Assembly: GCA_945871905.1 (NCBI GenBank)
Contig: CAMBXL010000013.1
Span: forward strand, 1 to 56,747
Length of the DNA: 56,747 nt
Reading direction: 5' to 3'
Origin: Chitinophaga pinensis
GTDB lineage: Bacteria > Bacteroidota > Bacteroidia > NS11-12g > UBA955
Below the pieces are notes generated by a model that worked only from the letters and a program-made list of their open reading frames with translations, searched no databases and was not told where the DNA came from. Shown piece after piece: positions 9,721-15,230 of this stretch (positions are counted from its first letter, which is position 1; the number at the start of each line of letters is the position of its first letter). The position numbers and the translations under genes were made by a program.

Positions 9721-11112
9721 TTGTCTAAAAGTTTTTTTTTATTGTTTTTATGTTTGGGTATAAGCTCAAAAATTCAGGCATCACAGCAAGATTCCTTAAT
9801 GAGTGTTATTGAGTCCATTGAAATAAAAGGGCACAAAAAAACCAAAGACAGAATTATTTTAAGGGAACTTACCTTTAAAATAGGAGATACCATTAATCCT
9901 GTTAATAAAAATTATCACACCGAACGAAGCCGACAACAATTGTTGAATTTGTATTTGTTCAACGAAGTGCAAATCACATTCGAAAATCATAAAGCGGTTA
10001 TATACATCAAAGAACGTTGGTATATTTGGCCCTCTCCCAAGTTGAACCATGCCGATAGGAATTTCAATCAATGGTGGTTGAGCAAAGACTCTGAACGCTT
10101 AACTTATGGTTTAGACTTAGAGTGGTATAATTTTAGGGGTAGAAATGAAACCCTTAAGTTTTATTTTCGTTCGGGTTATACCAAACAAGCTGCTTTATTG
10201 TACCAGTTGCCGTATTTCAATAAAAAGCAAACTTGGGGTGCTCAGTTGAACGCACATTATTCGAGAAATAAAGAGGTTTGGGTAGCCACAGAAGCCAATA
10301 AAGTTCAGTTTTTTAAAGCCAATGATCTCAATTTAATTGAACGAAAATCGATTGAATTGGCCTTTGTTCATAGAAAAAAAATTCTAAGTTACCATCGGTT
10401 TTATGGGGGGTATAGACAAATTCAAGTCAATGACACTGTTATAAAATCAAATCCTAATTATTTAGTAGGGTCTAATTTAAAACAACAAGAATGGTATTTG
10501 GGGTATTTATTCACTTATGATAAAAGAGATTTTAAAGGCTATCCACTCAAAGGGAGGTTGTTTAAAGCCAGCGCTGAATATGGGGTATTTGCGAGTGCCA
10601 TTCGTTCAAATCCCTTTACTCTAAAAATATCTTACAGTGAGTACACTCCAATAAGTAAGCGTTTTTTTAATTCAAGTTTGCTCACCCTACGCCGAATGGA
10701 AATGCCTTTCCCAGCTTATAATAAGTTATTGGCTTTGGGATATGAAAGGGATTTTATCAGGGGATATGAGTTGAATGTGATTGATGGTTTACATTTTGCT
10801 TTAGCCAAAACAGAGTTTAAATACAAATTATTCGACAAAAAGTTTCCTTTTGTAAAGCGATTTAGTAATTACGAAACCATCCCAATTGCCATGTATCTCA
10901 CGGCTTTTTCAGATGTTGGAAAAGTAGTAGCGCACCCTTTACTAGTGGAAAGTATAGTGAAAAATGGTAACACAATGGTTGGAGAATGGCAATATGGCGC
11001 AGGAATAGGTATGAATTTTGTTTTCTATTACGACTATTGCCTGAGAGTAGAATATTCAGTCAATCGGTTTTTATTCAACCGTTTTTATGTTCAATTTTCG
11101 GCAGCTATTTAA
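9721..11112 (+). CDS. Small Omp85/BamA-like outer-membrane protein with one POTRA domain
   Basis: A 463-residue protein starting at TTG 9721, which directly opens a signal peptide (MSKSFFLLFLCLGISSKIQA). Residues about 30-100 look like a single POTRA domain (IESIEIKGHKKTKDRIILREL, then NLYLFNEVQI and AVIYIKERW). The rest is beta-barrel-like with alternating aromatics and contains DKRDFKGYPLKG, ALGYERDFIRGYEL (equivalent to the RGY/RGF motif of the Omp85 L6 loop) and a C-terminal aromatic strand. One POTRA instead of five means it is not the main BamA, which is at 43985-46588. It may insert or secrete a specific substrate. Two bases separate it from the CBS gene. Confidence 0.78.
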   Translation: MSKSFFLLFLCLGISSKIQASQQDSLMSVIESIEIKGHKKTKDRIILRELTFKIGDTINPVNKNYHTERSRQQLLNLYLFNEVQITFENHKAVIYIKERWYIWPSPKLNHADRNFNQWWLSKDSERLTYGLDLEWYNFRGRNETLKFYFRSGYTKQAALLYQLPYFNKKQTWGAQLNAHYSRNKEVWVATEANKVQFFKANDLNLIERKSIELAFVHRKKILSYHRFYGGYRQIQVNDTVIKSNPNYLVGSNLKQQEWYLGYLFTYDKRDFKGYPLKGRLFKASAEYGVFASAIRSNPFTLKISYSEYTPISKRFFNSSLLTLRRMEMPFPAYNKLLALGYERDFIRGYELNVIDGLHFALAKTEFKYKLFDKKFPFVKRFSNYETIPIAMYLTAFSDVGKVVAHPLLVESIVKNGNTMVGEWQYGAGIGMNFVFYYDYCLRVEYSVNRFLFNRFYVQFSAAI

Positions 11113-11133
11113 AAAGATATTTTAAAAAGATAT

Positions 11134-11164
11134 TTGTTTTTGTAGTACTTATTGTTTAATTTTG
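11134..11164 (+). promoter_or_regulatory. Promoter TTG-N20-TAATTTTG before the Cys-rich pair
   Basis: TTG at 11134-11136 and TAATTTTG at 11157-11164, 20 bases apart, match the Bacteroidota -33/-7 arrangement. The TTG start at 11172 lies only 7 bases after the box, so the transcript would be nearly leaderless. Confidence 0.6.
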
Positions 11165-11171
11165 TGTAGAT

Positions 11172-11573
11172 TTGAGATTAAAAGCCTACATATTAACCCT
11201 TTTGTTCTTGTTAGGTAGCAATGGAATTTCTATTGATATTGCCACTTGTTGCGACTCAATATCAGGGTTTTCTATTGGATTTCAGTCGGCAGACAATCAC
11301 CTTCCTTGCAATAATTGCACTTCTTGTGTTTCAAAAACAAAGTCTTCTTGCTGTGATTTGTTTCAAATCAATACCGTTATTAATCCTGTTTTATTTTCAG
11401 GTAATGTACAACAGCTTAAAGTCAAAGATTTAAAGTTTAATCACTTTGCTTTTAATTCTAACTCTAATCAAGTTACTTATCCTCTAATTGATGATATTCA
11501 ATTTATTTCACAATACTCTGAACAAATACCCGGAGTTCCCATTCTTTTGAAAAAAAGAGTGTTACAAATTTGA
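11172..11573 (+). CDS. Small exported Cys-rich protein (HYC_CC_PP-like, degenerate)
   Basis: A 133-residue protein beginning with TTG 11172, which gives a good signal peptide (MRLKAYILTLLFLLGSNGIS). The mature part has ATCCDSISGFSIGF, CNNCTSC, SSCCDLF and a C-terminal PGVPILLKKRV. Order and spacing recall the Bacteroidota HYC_CC_PP family (His-x-Cys near the N-terminus, CC in the middle, a proline motif near the end), but the His-Tyr-Cys and Pro-Pro motifs are altered. The role is unknown; metal-binding is likely from the eight or so thiols. It is followed, 139 bases on, by a metallothionein-like protein gene on the same strand. Confidence 0.6.
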   Translation: MRLKAYILTLLFLLGSNGISIDIATCCDSISGFSIGFQSADNHLPCNNCTSCVSKTKSSCCDLFQINTVINPVLFSGNVQQLKVKDLKFNHFAFNSNSNQVTYPLIDDIQFISQYSEQIPGVPILLKKRVLQI

Positions 11574-11616
11574 TAAAAAGCAAAAGTAGGTGATTTATCA
11601 ACTGTAAAGCTTTTGC
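11570..11616 (+). promoter_or_regulatory. Two overlapping, mutually exclusive stem-loops between the Cys-rich genes
   Basis: TTGATAAA (11570-11577) pairs with TTTATCAA (11594-11601), and GCAAAAG (11580-11586) pairs with CTTTTGC (11610-11616). The two stems cross, so only one can form unless a pseudoknot is made. They start at the stop codon of the first Cys-rich gene and precede the metallothionein-like gene, which suggests attenuation or coupling; no experiment supports this. Confidence 0.35.
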
Positions 11617-11712
11617 AATACTTCCGAAACTTTTCTTATGCGTTTTGAGTTATTGTTTTGCGCTTTTTCAAAACGATACAAACCCAAATTTAAAAATTTT
11701 AAACAAAATAGT

Positions 11713-12078
11713 ATGAACAAAAAAATCATTTTAGGCTCATTAGTAGCCGTTATAGCCATCGTTGCATCTTTCTTTATTGTCAATCAGTCAAGTCAATCAA
11801 ATTGCTACAAAGTTAAATCAACAGCTTCTACCGAAAAGTGTTGCGACACTCAATGTGAGTGTGGAGATACTTGTATAGGAGAAGGTTGTGATTGCATTGA
11901 TGCCTGTCAAGCAAATGCAGGTGCAAAAGACGAATGCTGCGATTCGGAAAGTACAGCAATGACTAGTTCAGTAGAATTTACTGAAAGTTGTGCCAATGAC
12001 TCATGCAATGAAAAATGCACATGTGGTGAATCTTGCACAGGTGCAAATTGTGATTGCCCTTGTGGGTCTTGCAAATAA
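11713..12078 (+). CDS. Membrane-anchored or exported metallothionein-like Cys-rich protein
   Basis: The ATG at 11713 opens a 121-residue protein with one N-terminal hydrophobic helix (MNKKIILGSLVAVIAIVASF) and no lipobox. An upstream in-frame ATG at 11638 was rejected because it only adds a charged extension. The mature part has 20 Cys and two copies of CxCGx(S/T)CxGxxCDC: CECGDTCIGEGCDC and CTCGESCTGANCDC, the second followed by PCGSCK. This C-x-C spacing is that of metallothioneins, which hold Cu(I), Zn or Cd as thiolate clusters. Bacterial metallothioneins known to me are cytoplasmic and shorter, so an exported, tandem-repeat form would be unusual. It shares a strand and perhaps a transcript with 11172-11573. 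Confidence 0.7.
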   Translation: MNKKIILGSLVAVIAIVASFFIVNQSSQSNCYKVKSTASTEKCCDTQCECGDTCIGEGCDCIDACQANAGAKDECCDSESTAMTSSVEFTESCANDSCNEKCTCGESCTGANCDCPCGSCK

Positions 12079-12097
12079 TTATTAACTTGTATCTTTT

Positions 12098-12128
12098 AAG
12101 AAAAGGGCTGTTTTTTAGCCCTTTTCTT
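12098..12128. terminator. Bidirectional terminator between convergent genes
   Basis: AAGAAAAGGGCT (12098-12109) and AGCCCTTTTCTT (12117-12128) pair perfectly over 12 bases. T-runs exist on both strands, so it can end both the metallothionein-like transcript and the opposing HTTM/rho transcript. Confidence 0.8.
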
Positions 12129-13464
12129 ATTTAAAATCTTGAGGAGCGTCCAATATCCATGATTGTGTGCCCCAATAATTCCATTTTTCATCAGCTAAGT
12201 TAACTTGAGAATTGATAAATGGATACCAAGGGCCTCGGTTTACAGAAATTTGACAGTCAGCATAAACTTCTATTTGTTTGCCTTGTTTTAAATAATGCTG
12301 TTTTAAATGCTGAGCAAATTGCCAAATCATATCAGGTTTTGACTGAAAGTCGTTGATTTGTTCTTTGCTTAGGTAGTCTGAAAAATTAACGATTTCAAGT
12401 TGATTGTTTAGTTTGATGTAAAAATTGCAATTCCCAGTTCTTGACCTCAACATCATTCGCCAAGACAAGCGGTGTCCTGTTTCATTCCACAATACTGGTC
12501 CCTTCATAAAATAATGCCTTATGGGTAATAAAACTTGTATGCTGATAAAAACGATGACAAATGCTTGAATAAGTTTAGCGTTTTTAGGGAGGTTTGTTTC
12601 GTGTTCTGTCTCAAAATAAGGTTTACGGCGCAGGAATTTGTGGTGGATGTTTTTGCGCTCGAAAAAAAACAATGAGAAAGCCAAAGCAAAATAGGGAAAA
12701 ATACCAATGTGTAAGGTAATAGAATTAAATAAATGGAAGCCTATGGCAGCAAAAAACGCCAAAAGACGAGTTCTCTTCCAAAGCAAAGCAGGAAACATTA
12801 GCAAATCGAATAATATCCCAGAATAAGCTGTAAAAAGATGAAAATGATGGTTCCCAAGTAAGTTTATAAAAGGTTCCCAATTCATGTGTTTCTCATACCA
12901 ATGGGCAGAGTTTGAAAAAATAATACTGATAAAGTTGCCACTTAACCAATCGGGATAAAGTTTGGCAAAAGAAGCATAAGTGTAAACAATAAAAACCTGA
13001 ACCATTAAAAGGAGTTGAACCCAATAGTGGTAATAATTGACGGATTCTGTTCTTTTGTGTTTTACATCCAAAGATATTTGCGCATTAGCAGGAAAAAATA
13101 TCATCAGAAAAGAGATAAGGACTATTAAATAATAGTGGTTGTTATACTCTGTTTTTTGCAAGAAATAGGTGGTGCTCCAAAACAAAAAGAATAAAGTGGA
13201 ACTCAGTTTGTATCGATAGCCAAGGGCAATACCCAAACCAAAAATGCCCATAATAATATAATGGACATACATGTAAGGCCCTTGTAAAATTTGAAATAAC
13301 TCAAATCCTATAAAGCTAAACAGATAGCTAGGTTTTATAAAAGTGGAATGAACCCAACCTGTAAGAATAGCTCCCCATGATTCAATAAGCATGAGTGAGC
13401 CAAAGAAAATTCTAAAGAGAATTAGTGGCGAATTGTCAACTTTTTTGAATAGAAGTTGATTCAT
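12127..13464 (-). CDS. HTTM domain (vitamin K-dependent gamma-carboxylase-like) membrane protein
   Basis: A 445-residue inner-membrane protein with about eight to ten hydrophobic segments up to residue 310 and a soluble C-terminal part. LFRIFFGSLMLIESWG, GWVHSTFIKPSY, MYVHYIIMGIFGLG, TEYNNHYYLI and IGFHLFNSITLHIGIFPY match the HTTM family, related to vitamin K-dependent gamma-carboxylase. Bacterial members are widespread in Bacteroidota and their substrates are unknown; carboxylation is not shown. It follows rho by 14 bases on the minus strand. The stop codon overlaps the terminator stem. Confidence 0.85.
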   Translation of the reverse strand: MNQLLFKKVDNSPLILFRIFFGSLMLIESWGAILTGWVHSTFIKPSYLFSFIGFELFQILQGPYMYVHYIIMGIFGLGIALGYRYKLSSTLFFLFWSTTYFLQKTEYNNHYYLIVLISFLMIFFPANAQISLDVKHKRTESVNYYHYWVQLLLMVQVFIVYTYASFAKLYPDWLSGNFISIIFSNSAHWYEKHMNWEPFINLLGNHHFHLFTAYSGILFDLLMFPALLWKRTRLLAFFAAIGFHLFNSITLHIGIFPYFALAFSLFFFERKNIHHKFLRRKPYFETEHETNLPKNAKLIQAFVIVFISIQVLLPIRHYFMKGPVLWNETGHRLSWRMMLRSRTGNCNFYIKLNNQLEIVNFSDYLSKEQINDFQSKPDMIWQFAQHLKQHYLKQGKQIEVYADCQISVNRGPWYPFINSQVNLADEKWNYWGTQSWILDAPQDFK

Positions 13465-13478
13465 AGTTGTTTGTTTAA

Positions 13479-15230
13479 TTAGCCATTCATACTTACCAAG
13501 AACTCATTGTTGTCTTTAGTTCCGGTCATGTATTTTAGCATCATTTTCATTGCTTCTTCACTGTTCATGTCAGCCAAGTGATTTCTTAAAACCCACATTT
13601 TTTGTAGAGTTGATTTATCTAAAAGCATATCATCTCTTCTTGTACTTGAACTTACTATATCAATGGCAGGATAAAGACGTTTGTTAGATAATTTACGGTC
13701 TAACTGTAATTCCATGTTACCAGTACCTTTAAATTCTTCAAAAATAACTTCGTCCATTTTGCTACCGGTTTCAGTTAATGCAGTAGCTATAATTGTTAAA
13801 GAGCCTCCATTTTCAATGTTTCTAGCAGCTCCAAAAAAACGTTTTGGTTTTTGAAGAGCATTGGCATCCACACCACCTGATAATATTTTACCCGATGCCG
13901 GTTGAACAGTATTATAAGCACGTGCTAATCTGGTAATTGAGTCAAGCAATATTACAACGTCGTGTCCACTTTCTGTCAATCTTTTGGCTTTTTCTAAAAC
14001 GATATTTGCCAATTTTACGTGTTTTTCTGCAGGTTCATCAAAAGTACTCGCTACGACTTCTGCATTTACACTTCTTGCCATGTCTGTTACCTCTTCCGGA
14101 CGTTCATCTATAAGCAATATGATCATGTAAACCTCAGGGTGATTGGTTGCAATAGCATTGGCAAGACCTTTTAATAGTTGAGTTTTTCCTGTTTTAGGTT
14201 GAGCAACAATAAGTCCACGTTGACCTTTACCTATAGGAGAAACTAAATCTATAATACGGTTGCTATAATTGTCATTTTTGTCAACCAAATTAAGCTTTTC
14301 TTGAGGAAACAGGGGCGTTAAATGCTCAAAGCTAACACGGTCACGAATTTCTTCAATGCTTTTCCCGTTGATTTTCTCAACTTTCACCAATGCAAAGTAT
14401 TTTTCACCTTCTTTGGGTGGTCTTATCGTTCCAAGAACAGTATCACCTGTTTTTAGTCCATTGGAACGGACTTGGTGCGAAGCCAAATACACGTCATCAG
14501 GTGATGCCATGTAGTTGTAATCTGCTGATCTCAAAAAGCCATATCCCTCATTGGTAATTTCCAAAACACCTTGGGTTTGAATAATACCTTCAAGCTCAAC
14601 TAGTTGTTGAATTCTCTCACGTTTGGCATTTTCTTTTTCAAGGCGTTCTTTCTCTTGTTTTTCTTTGAGTTGTTGTTGCTCTTCAAGATGTTTTTGACGT
14701 TCTATTTCAGCCTCAGACAATACTTTTTCTTGAGGTTGTTTGTTTTCGTTGTTTTGGTGATGGTGTTGTTGTTTGCCTTTGTGATTTCTTTCTTGTGGCA
14801 AAGGTTTGTGATCAGGTTGTTTTTTTTCAACAACAACTTCTATTTGATTCTCTTTCTCAGAATTTTCAACTTCTACAATTGGCAATTCTTGAGTAATTTC
14901 GGGAATTTCTTCAATAATTTGAGGCGTTTCCTCTATTTCAAGTTCTGCGATTTCTTGTTTTATTTCATCTGAACCAAAGTCACTTTGAATTTCGGTAGTA
15001 TTGGCATTGGTTTCAGGATTGGTTTTTGGTTTACGTTTCCCTTTGGCTACTTTTTTTACTTTAATGTTATTATTTGAAGCGCTTTCTGGTTTTGCTGATG
15101 CATTTTCCAAAGCGGTTATTTTTGAAATGATTTGTTCTTTGTTCAAGGAATCAGTCCCTTCGATTCCAATTGCATTAGCAATAAGCTGTAACTCGTCTAA
15201 AGGTTTTTCAAATAGGTTTTTATAATCCAT
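13479..15230 (-). CDS. rho: Transcription termination factor Rho, with long N-terminal insertion
   Basis: A 583-residue Rho; E. coli Rho is 419. It has the N-terminal helical domain ([19 protein letters not shown], residues 1-42), then about 165 residues of low-complexity charged sequence (acidic runs, [23 protein letters not shown]), the primary RNA-binding fold near 218-290 ([17 protein letters not shown]), and the RecA-like motor with Walker A AQPKTGKT at 343-350 and Walker [18 protein letters not shown]. Rho is the hexameric ATP-driven terminator. Insertions between the N-terminal parts are known in Bacteroidota and other phyla and affect RNA binding or condensation. The leader contains a hairpin (15271-15315). 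Confidence 0.95.

Follow-up and report, generated by a model that had tools for sequence, protein, structure and literature searches.

A family of small cysteine-rich, metallothionein-like proteins with a predicted export helix, encoded next to HYC_CC_PP-like and, in relatives, MbnP/MbnH-like genes

The window analysed here is a stretch of 56,747 nucleotides from Chitinophaga pinensis (contig CAMBXL010000013.1 of assembly GCA_945871905.1). It encloses a small gene whose translation bore out what had been read from the DNA at the outset, namely a protein of 121 residues with 20 cysteines, one N-terminal hydrophobic helix and two modules of the form CxCGx(S/T)CxGxxCDC (Table 1). A gene encoding a HYC_CC_PP-like protein lies directly upstream, and the pair is flanked by an Omp85-like gene and by a convergent HTTM gene, with a terminator-like hairpin sitting between the latter and the metallothionein-like gene. 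The HTTM protein matches the vitamin K-dependent gamma-carboxylase lumenal domain (PF05090, 220.1 bits; PF22777, 149.5 bits), and no homologue of it was present in the 16 clustered stretches of relatives described below. Before the HYC_CC_PP-like gene the motifs TTTG and TAATTTTG are found 20 bases apart, an arrangement which presumably fits the Bacteroidota promoter consensus; a promoter at this place would put the start of transcription nearly on the TTG start codon.

Table 1. Features of the metallothionein-like locus, with positions given in the window.
Feature	Position	Strand	Remarks
Omp85-like gene	9721..11112		flanks the gene pair
Promoter-like motifs	11133..11164		TTTG and TAATTTTG
HYC_CC_PP-like gene	11172..11573	+	TTG start; hydrophobic N-terminus; directly upstream of the metallothionein-like gene
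Intergenic gap between the two genes	11574..11712	+	139 bases
Metallothionein-like gene	11713..12078	+	121 aa, 20 Cys; export/anchoring predicted
N-terminal hydrophobic helix	11725..11781	+	residues 5-23; Kyte-Doolittle mean 2.94; preceded by Lys-Lys
Cys module 1	11854..11895	+	CECGDTCIGEGCDC; residues 48-61; fits CxCGx(S/T)CxGxxCDC
Cys module 2	12016..12057	+	CTCGESCTGANCDC; residues 102-115; fits CxCGx(S/T)CxGxxCDC
Cys module 2 plus C-terminal CPCGSCK	12016..12075	+	reaches the protein end
Terminator-like hairpin	12097..12129	.	14-bp stem; -20.2 kcal/mol for 12095-12136
HTTM gene	12127..13464	-	convergent

The metallothionein-like gene is a real, conserved gene that is under purifying selection in the relatives. 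Alignment with these relatives backs the start at position 11713 against an in-frame ATG at 11638, which would yield a protein of 146 residues, and on the opposite strand several stops interrupt the frame. In a protein search homologues were obtained in 7 of 59 genomes, the window's own included, and a profile built from six sequences detected the gene in 18 of the 108 genomes of the order. Sixteen of these belong to the window's genus, where the only miss among 17 genomes was one of 68% completeness (G008), and the remaining two positives represent one genome each in two other genera of the family; over 395 genomes spread across the phylum the same profile matched the window's genome only. 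The ratio dN/dS, calculated with our own Nei-Gojobori script, was between 0.08 and 0.20 in eight of nine close pairs, and the ninth pair (G006/G011) showed two synonymous changes and none other.

Family counts were made over 17 full-length members, G016 being left out as it is cut by its contig. Fifteen of them are proteins of 62-71 residues with a single module, in which a Lys-rich start is followed by the hydrophobic helix, a short polar linker and a tail of 34-39 residues that holds 12-14 cysteines. These tails consist of cysteine to 35-39%, carry four or five CxC apiece and terminate in C-x-C-G-C-x-C-C-(K/E/N). Long members were found only in the window's species (121 residues) and in G001 (116 residues, with a degenerate first module). 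The duplicated form, on which the preliminary description laid weight, is thus present in the window, but it is not the essence of the family, all but two of the 17 full-length members carrying a single module; to judge from its rarity, the doubled module may well be a derived state in one corner of the family. It is the second copy of the window protein that matches the full seven-Cys pattern seen in the single-module relatives.

When 14 members are aligned, 13 positions prove invariant, and cysteine occupies 10 of them. The total number of cysteines ranges from 12 to 20 over the 17 members and is odd in seven of them, the window member having its 20 within the 91 residues from the first cysteine to the C-terminus. 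After the first cysteine no member has a histidine, and 16 of 17 have no Phe, Trp or Tyr either; the two aromatic residues of the window member are both outside its modules. The protein therefore shows the traits of a metallothionein in the broad sense, that is a small Cys-dense domain, CxC and CC clusters and modules without aromatic residues or histidine. SmtA/BmtA-type metallothioneins have histidine ligands in their zinc-finger part, and this feature is absent, there being no histidine.

All 17 full-length members possess the N-terminal helix, with a best 19-residue hydropathy mean of 1.55-2.94 starting at residues 4 to 7. In the window protein this helix is presumably a signal anchor or a signal peptide, which would leave the Cys part outside, and the acidic tail counts 17 Asp/Glu against 6 Lys/Arg. 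In most relatives the helix is closed by Tyr-Ala, which could be a signal-peptidase site; the window member has no Tyr-Ala. An AlphaFold model based on 14 sequences had a mean pLDDT of 44, exceeding 50 only in parts, chiefly the first 23 residues; this low-confidence model places a helix at residues 10-25 and holds no other confident structure beyond it.

Loosened to five Cys and one Gly, a DNA pattern for the module matches the window at two places and none of 100 shuffled versions, and when the last 96 residues of the protein were shuffled 200,000 times with composition preserved, C.CG..C.G..C.C appeared at least once in 22 cases and twice in none. The window protein matched no Pfam or NCBIfam family at E<=1, the SmtA/BmtA-type metallothionein families included, and none in NCBIfam at E<=10. 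The sole family match of the G007 form was DUF599, with an E value of 0.15 and below the cut-off of that family. Searches of solved structures, which are weak for so Cys-rich a region, gave no relative of the window protein at E<=1 and none for a 13-row profile of the module at E<=10. A mobile-element origin was also considered and dropped, as tblastn (with the BLAST low-complexity filter on) gave no match among plasmids or phages at E<=0.01. The same applies to a viral origin: of six viral contigs that matched the DNA pattern, five were open in frame and looked like poly-Cys stretches read in the wrong frame, and one was not open.

The cysteines of exported proteins are often paired, and export is predicted here, so the protein might be a disulfide-rich envelope protein in which paired cysteines knot the chain into a small fold that serves either binding or structure. 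We regard this as unlikely. An EGF-like or other known disulfide module, which the preliminary description had named as the finding that would tell against metal binding, did not emerge from Pfam or NCBIfam at E<=1, the number of cysteines varies from member to member and is often odd, and the module also exists in proteins without any helix; variable and odd totals together with helix-less versions make a fixed disulfide fold improbable. The oxidising envelope assumed at the outset is itself doubtful, since in the window's genome, which is 99.7% complete, no match to VKOR or DsbB was found, and both matches to the DsbA family look cytoplasmic, one having no signal and reading DIVCPFC and the other being fused behind a monooxygenase-like part. 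Oxidation of the cysteines in the envelope could nevertheless take place, and the evidence against a disulfide fold falls short of proving metal binding.

The upstream partner of the window scores 13.7 bits against the HYC_CC_PP model (NF047658), below the cut-off of 28, and reads TCC where members of that family read HYC. The genes at the same position in three relatives, scanned singly, gave 37.0 and 32.5 bits, which pass, and 25.5 bits, which fails. Sixteen such genes are known from the relatives and the window; 13 of them were aligned, all 13 matched NF047658 at E<=0.1 (best 4e-10), and we consider that the partner borders on or belongs to the HYC_CC_PP family, so that the label given to it earlier is a fair one. 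The co-occurrence of the two genes also held up, for in 16 of 18 genomes the gene directly upstream is HYC_CC_PP-like and has the same orientation, the exceptions being G027, which has none, and G011, where the contig ends. A conserved intergenic element was looked for and rejected, the gaps of 15 loci (113-206 bases) having no sequence common to all.

Of 296 Bacteroidota genomes, 90 gave a match to HYC_CC_PP at E<=0.001, and 83 of these exceeded the cut-off; the window's genome was not among the 90. The 30 best-scoring loci come mostly from a few families; around them, a gene for a CusA-type RND pump was near in 11, an HMA-domain gene in three, an AraC-type regulator with an MVCxRC motif in two and a TonB-dependent receptor in 18, the neighbours having been identified by Pfam for examples and by tblastn against those examples for the others. 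Because the TonB receptors have no known substrate, the link to metals is clear for just part of this family. In G693, a genome of another family, a weak match to HYC_CC_PP (17.2 bits, and 18.2 bits to VcpD, neither reaching its cut-off) at L170:13842-14165 is followed at 14250-14540, both on the minus strand, by a different Cys-rich protein of 108 residues with a signal-like start, 21 cysteines and no family match; the arrangement may be a comparable gene pair in which the Cys-rich partner is unrelated.

In the relatives the genes beyond the pair were surveyed in 16 stretches around the gene, the reading frames of which were clustered by BLAST together with those of the window. Directly downstream of the metallothionein-like gene, MbnP is encoded in 10 of the 17 testable genomes (G003, G005, G006, G007, G009, G010, G011, G013, G014 and G027), G016 being excluded as its contig ends inside the gene, and all ten were also recovered by a search with PF20243. 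After MbnP comes a MauG/MbnH-type di-haem gene in all nine testable loci, that of G005 being cut. In the G007 example the first protein scores 136 bits to PF20243 and 43.1 bits to TIGR04052 (cut-off 140), and the second 189.6 bits to CCP_MauG (PF03150) and 237.6 bits to the MbnH model TIGR04039 (cut-off 362.85); being below the NCBI naming cut-offs, they can be called only MbnP-like and MbnH-like. Neither of the two adjoins the metallothionein-like gene in the other seven genomes (G000, G001, G002, G004, G012, G015 and G022). As to the window, neither MbnP or MbnH nor a recognised metal transporter adjoins the gene, four neighbours having been scanned with Pfam and the others judged by eye, and its genome has two MbnP genes and five MauG-type genes elsewhere.

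MbnP is present in 103 of the 108 genomes of the order, so its mere presence is uninformative and adjacency alone counts, with the reservation that members of one genus share ancestry and the counts of adjacency are thus not independent. The unit was observed in three different surroundings, namely between Omp85-like and rho genes, with a CDF metal exporter (three loci) and an SDR gene, and in a third setting in G027, a pattern that fits a functional unit better than the common inheritance of a single chromosomal location. Omp85 and CDF were identified by a family scan of one example each, and rho and SDR by reading; of the three CDF exporters preceding the unit, one was recognised by family scan (236.8 bits to TIGR01297) and the others by BLAST clustering. 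The di-haem gene adjacent in relatives might suggest that the metallothionein-like protein buffers thiol redox state or scavenges oxidants on behalf of MbnH or further haem enzymes of the envelope, and that it binds metal only incidentally. This we hold to be very unlikely, given that the gene is retained with no adjacent MbnP/MbnH in 7 of the 17 testable genomes and that versions without a helix adjoin an AraC-type regulator instead.

These helix-less versions came to light in a search of genome contigs with the DNA pattern of the module (seven Cys, one Gly), which gave at least 118 stretches, all read in frame. Among the 118 matches listed the motif was open in a frame in 99, and most were judged not to belong to the family treated here, 11 alone passing a filter for reading frames of at most 130 residues that end near the motif and have no CCC. 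Four of these 11 were taken as members of the exported family (L054, L110, L117 and L148). A match in Thermoprotei (L091) was dropped as a probable wrong frame, and one in an Armatimonadetes MAG (L075:3746-3823, plus strand) may be a metallothionein-like peptide of 25 residues. The matches listed also include five relatives of 43-48 residues that have the module and no helix, from Phaeodactylibacter (L065), Rhodocytophaga aerolata (L074), Flavobacteriales (L103 and L116) and a Bacteroidetes bacterium (L138). When 395 genomes from the class were searched with a profile of the module, four matched, those of the window, G001, the L103 place and G693, the last being a sixth helix-less form of 39 residues. 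Four of the helix-less relatives were scanned and matched no Pfam or NCBIfam family at E<=10.

An AraC-type regulator with an MVCxRC motif at its N-terminus is encoded directly upstream in five of the six helix-less loci, and in the sixth (L138) none was found in the 581 bases upstream. By reading, this N-terminus appears HMA-like; Pfam recognises the HTH part only. The regulator occurs in 10 of the 17 genomes of the window's genus, and it was discarded as the window gene's own regulator, being absent from the window's genome at E<=1e-8. Six loci of the regulator were read in this genus: two have an HMA-containing P-type ATPase as neighbour, one has an HMA protein together with a multicopper oxidase, and in the remaining three no metal gene was recognised with confidence. 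The Rhodocytophaga locus also has a multicopper oxidase gene. Near the helix-less genes of L138 (6547-7212, minus strand) and L074 (3025-3672, minus strand) there are proteins of 222 and 216 residues which are alike by eye, the shorter having no Pfam match.

The helix-less Bacteroidota forms would be cytoplasmic, as SmtA is, and suggest that the module acts there. One could extend this to the window protein and suppose a reversed topology, in which the helix anchors an ordinary metallothionein on a membrane leash with its Cys tail in the cytoplasm. Such a topology seems extremely improbable to us, as the N-terminal lysines and the acidic tail fit an N-in/C-out orientation and, by reading, signal- or lipoprotein-like N-termini are seen in the HYC_CC_PP-like protein, MbnP and MbnH.

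Taken with its neighbours, the metallothionein-like gene probably encodes a metal-thiolate buffer of the envelope. The Lys-containing N-terminus and the hydrophobic helix would carry the protein through the inner membrane, leaving the acidic Cys-rich tail in the periplasm, either tethered or released, where each module (C-x-C-G-x-x-C-x-G-x-x-C-x-C with flanking cysteines) may wrap a cluster of soft metal ions. Together with the HYC_CC_PP-like protein and, in relatives, MbnP and MbnH, it might serve as a store or sink by which free metal is held low or metal is passed on. Such an envelope metal buffer had been proposed in the preliminary description, and the proposal is partly supported: richness in cysteine, CxC arrays, lack of histidine, the helix, conservation and metal-related neighbours in relatives all speak for it, while export and metal binding themselves are what we infer from these, and the copper-type neighbours MbnP and MbnH are seen only in relatives and not in the window.

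The metal would most likely be Cu(I), with Zn(II), Cd(II) and Ag(I) as further possibilities. CxC arrays also bind zinc and cadmium, and the CDF exporter that precedes the unit in three loci would suit a protein of the same architecture that buffers zinc and cadmium, or metals broadly, instead of copper. That reading deserves some weight, yet it is rather unlikely, since the MbnP/MbnH-like, CusA-type, HMA and multicopper oxidase genes found near the unit, near the partner family or near the helix-less relatives point to copper. If copper is the metal, we would tentatively entertain, as a speculative possibility, that the tethered metallothionein serves as copper reservoir to a relay in the envelope, in which Cu(I) held on the thiolate modules is delivered to the MbnP site and the HYC_CC_PP-like protein, MbnP and MbnH work as one unit. 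Species with no MbnP/MbnH at the locus would then retain the reservoir, and the window's species, which has two modules and no MbnP/MbnH at the locus, would have doubled it. A metallothionein in an MbnP gene unit would, if true, provide a direct and testable link to copper storage, and metal-thiolate buffering would be shown outside the cytoplasm. Within a single phylum the module exists both joined to a helix and free of one, which offers a clean test of what location changes.

The known bacterial metallothioneins (SmtA/BmtA/PmtA and MymT) are likewise small and Cys-rich, with presumed multi-metal thiolate clusters. The window protein differs from them in having no profile match, no histidine, an N-terminal hydrophobic helix and two modules, and in its neighbours, which are HYC_CC_PP-like and, in relatives, MbnP/MbnH. 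It had been stated beforehand that known bacterial metallothioneins are cytoplasmic; this is too strong, for PmtA of Pseudomonas is described as detected on the cell surface in the available text of PMC11237414, and Csp1, a thiolate copper store, is exported and carries a Tat signal according to the available text of PMC7558416, which names metallothioneins among the cytosolic copper binders. Csp1 combines thiolates with an export signal, as is predicted for the window protein, and it often co-occurs with methanobactin (PMC7558416, available text). It is a pre-folded four-helix bundle, whereas the window protein has a short tail of dense CxC and no Pfam match. What is new here is the gene context; the presumed metallothionein chemistry would operate at an uncommon location and within a gene unit not usual for it.

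The copper pairs MbnP/MbnH, MopE and CorA/CorB are related to our case by the MbnP- and MbnH-like genes that adjoin the metallothionein-like gene in relatives; they differ from the window protein in being single-copper-site proteins with a di-haem partner enzyme. MbnH is said to form kynurenine in MbnP, after which MbnP binds copper. In the somewhat similar CorA/CorB pair, kynurenine forms part of the site at which CorA binds one Cu(I) (PMC3912023, available text). A section of PMC3621798 (2013) is headed 'MbnP and MbnH: mysterious partners', and the text available from it describes the pair as conserved far outside methanobactin producers, with an unclear role there, and states that no data at that time tied close MbnP homologues to copper. 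The available parts of PMC3621798 and PMC3912023 make no mention of a metallothionein-like partner, and a literature search, with most subscription journals outside its coverage, returned no description of the family. A further Cys-rich protein is encoded in G003 a few kb from the metallothionein unit (L032:13940-14449, minus strand); it has 170 residues, a signal-like start and 13 cysteines.
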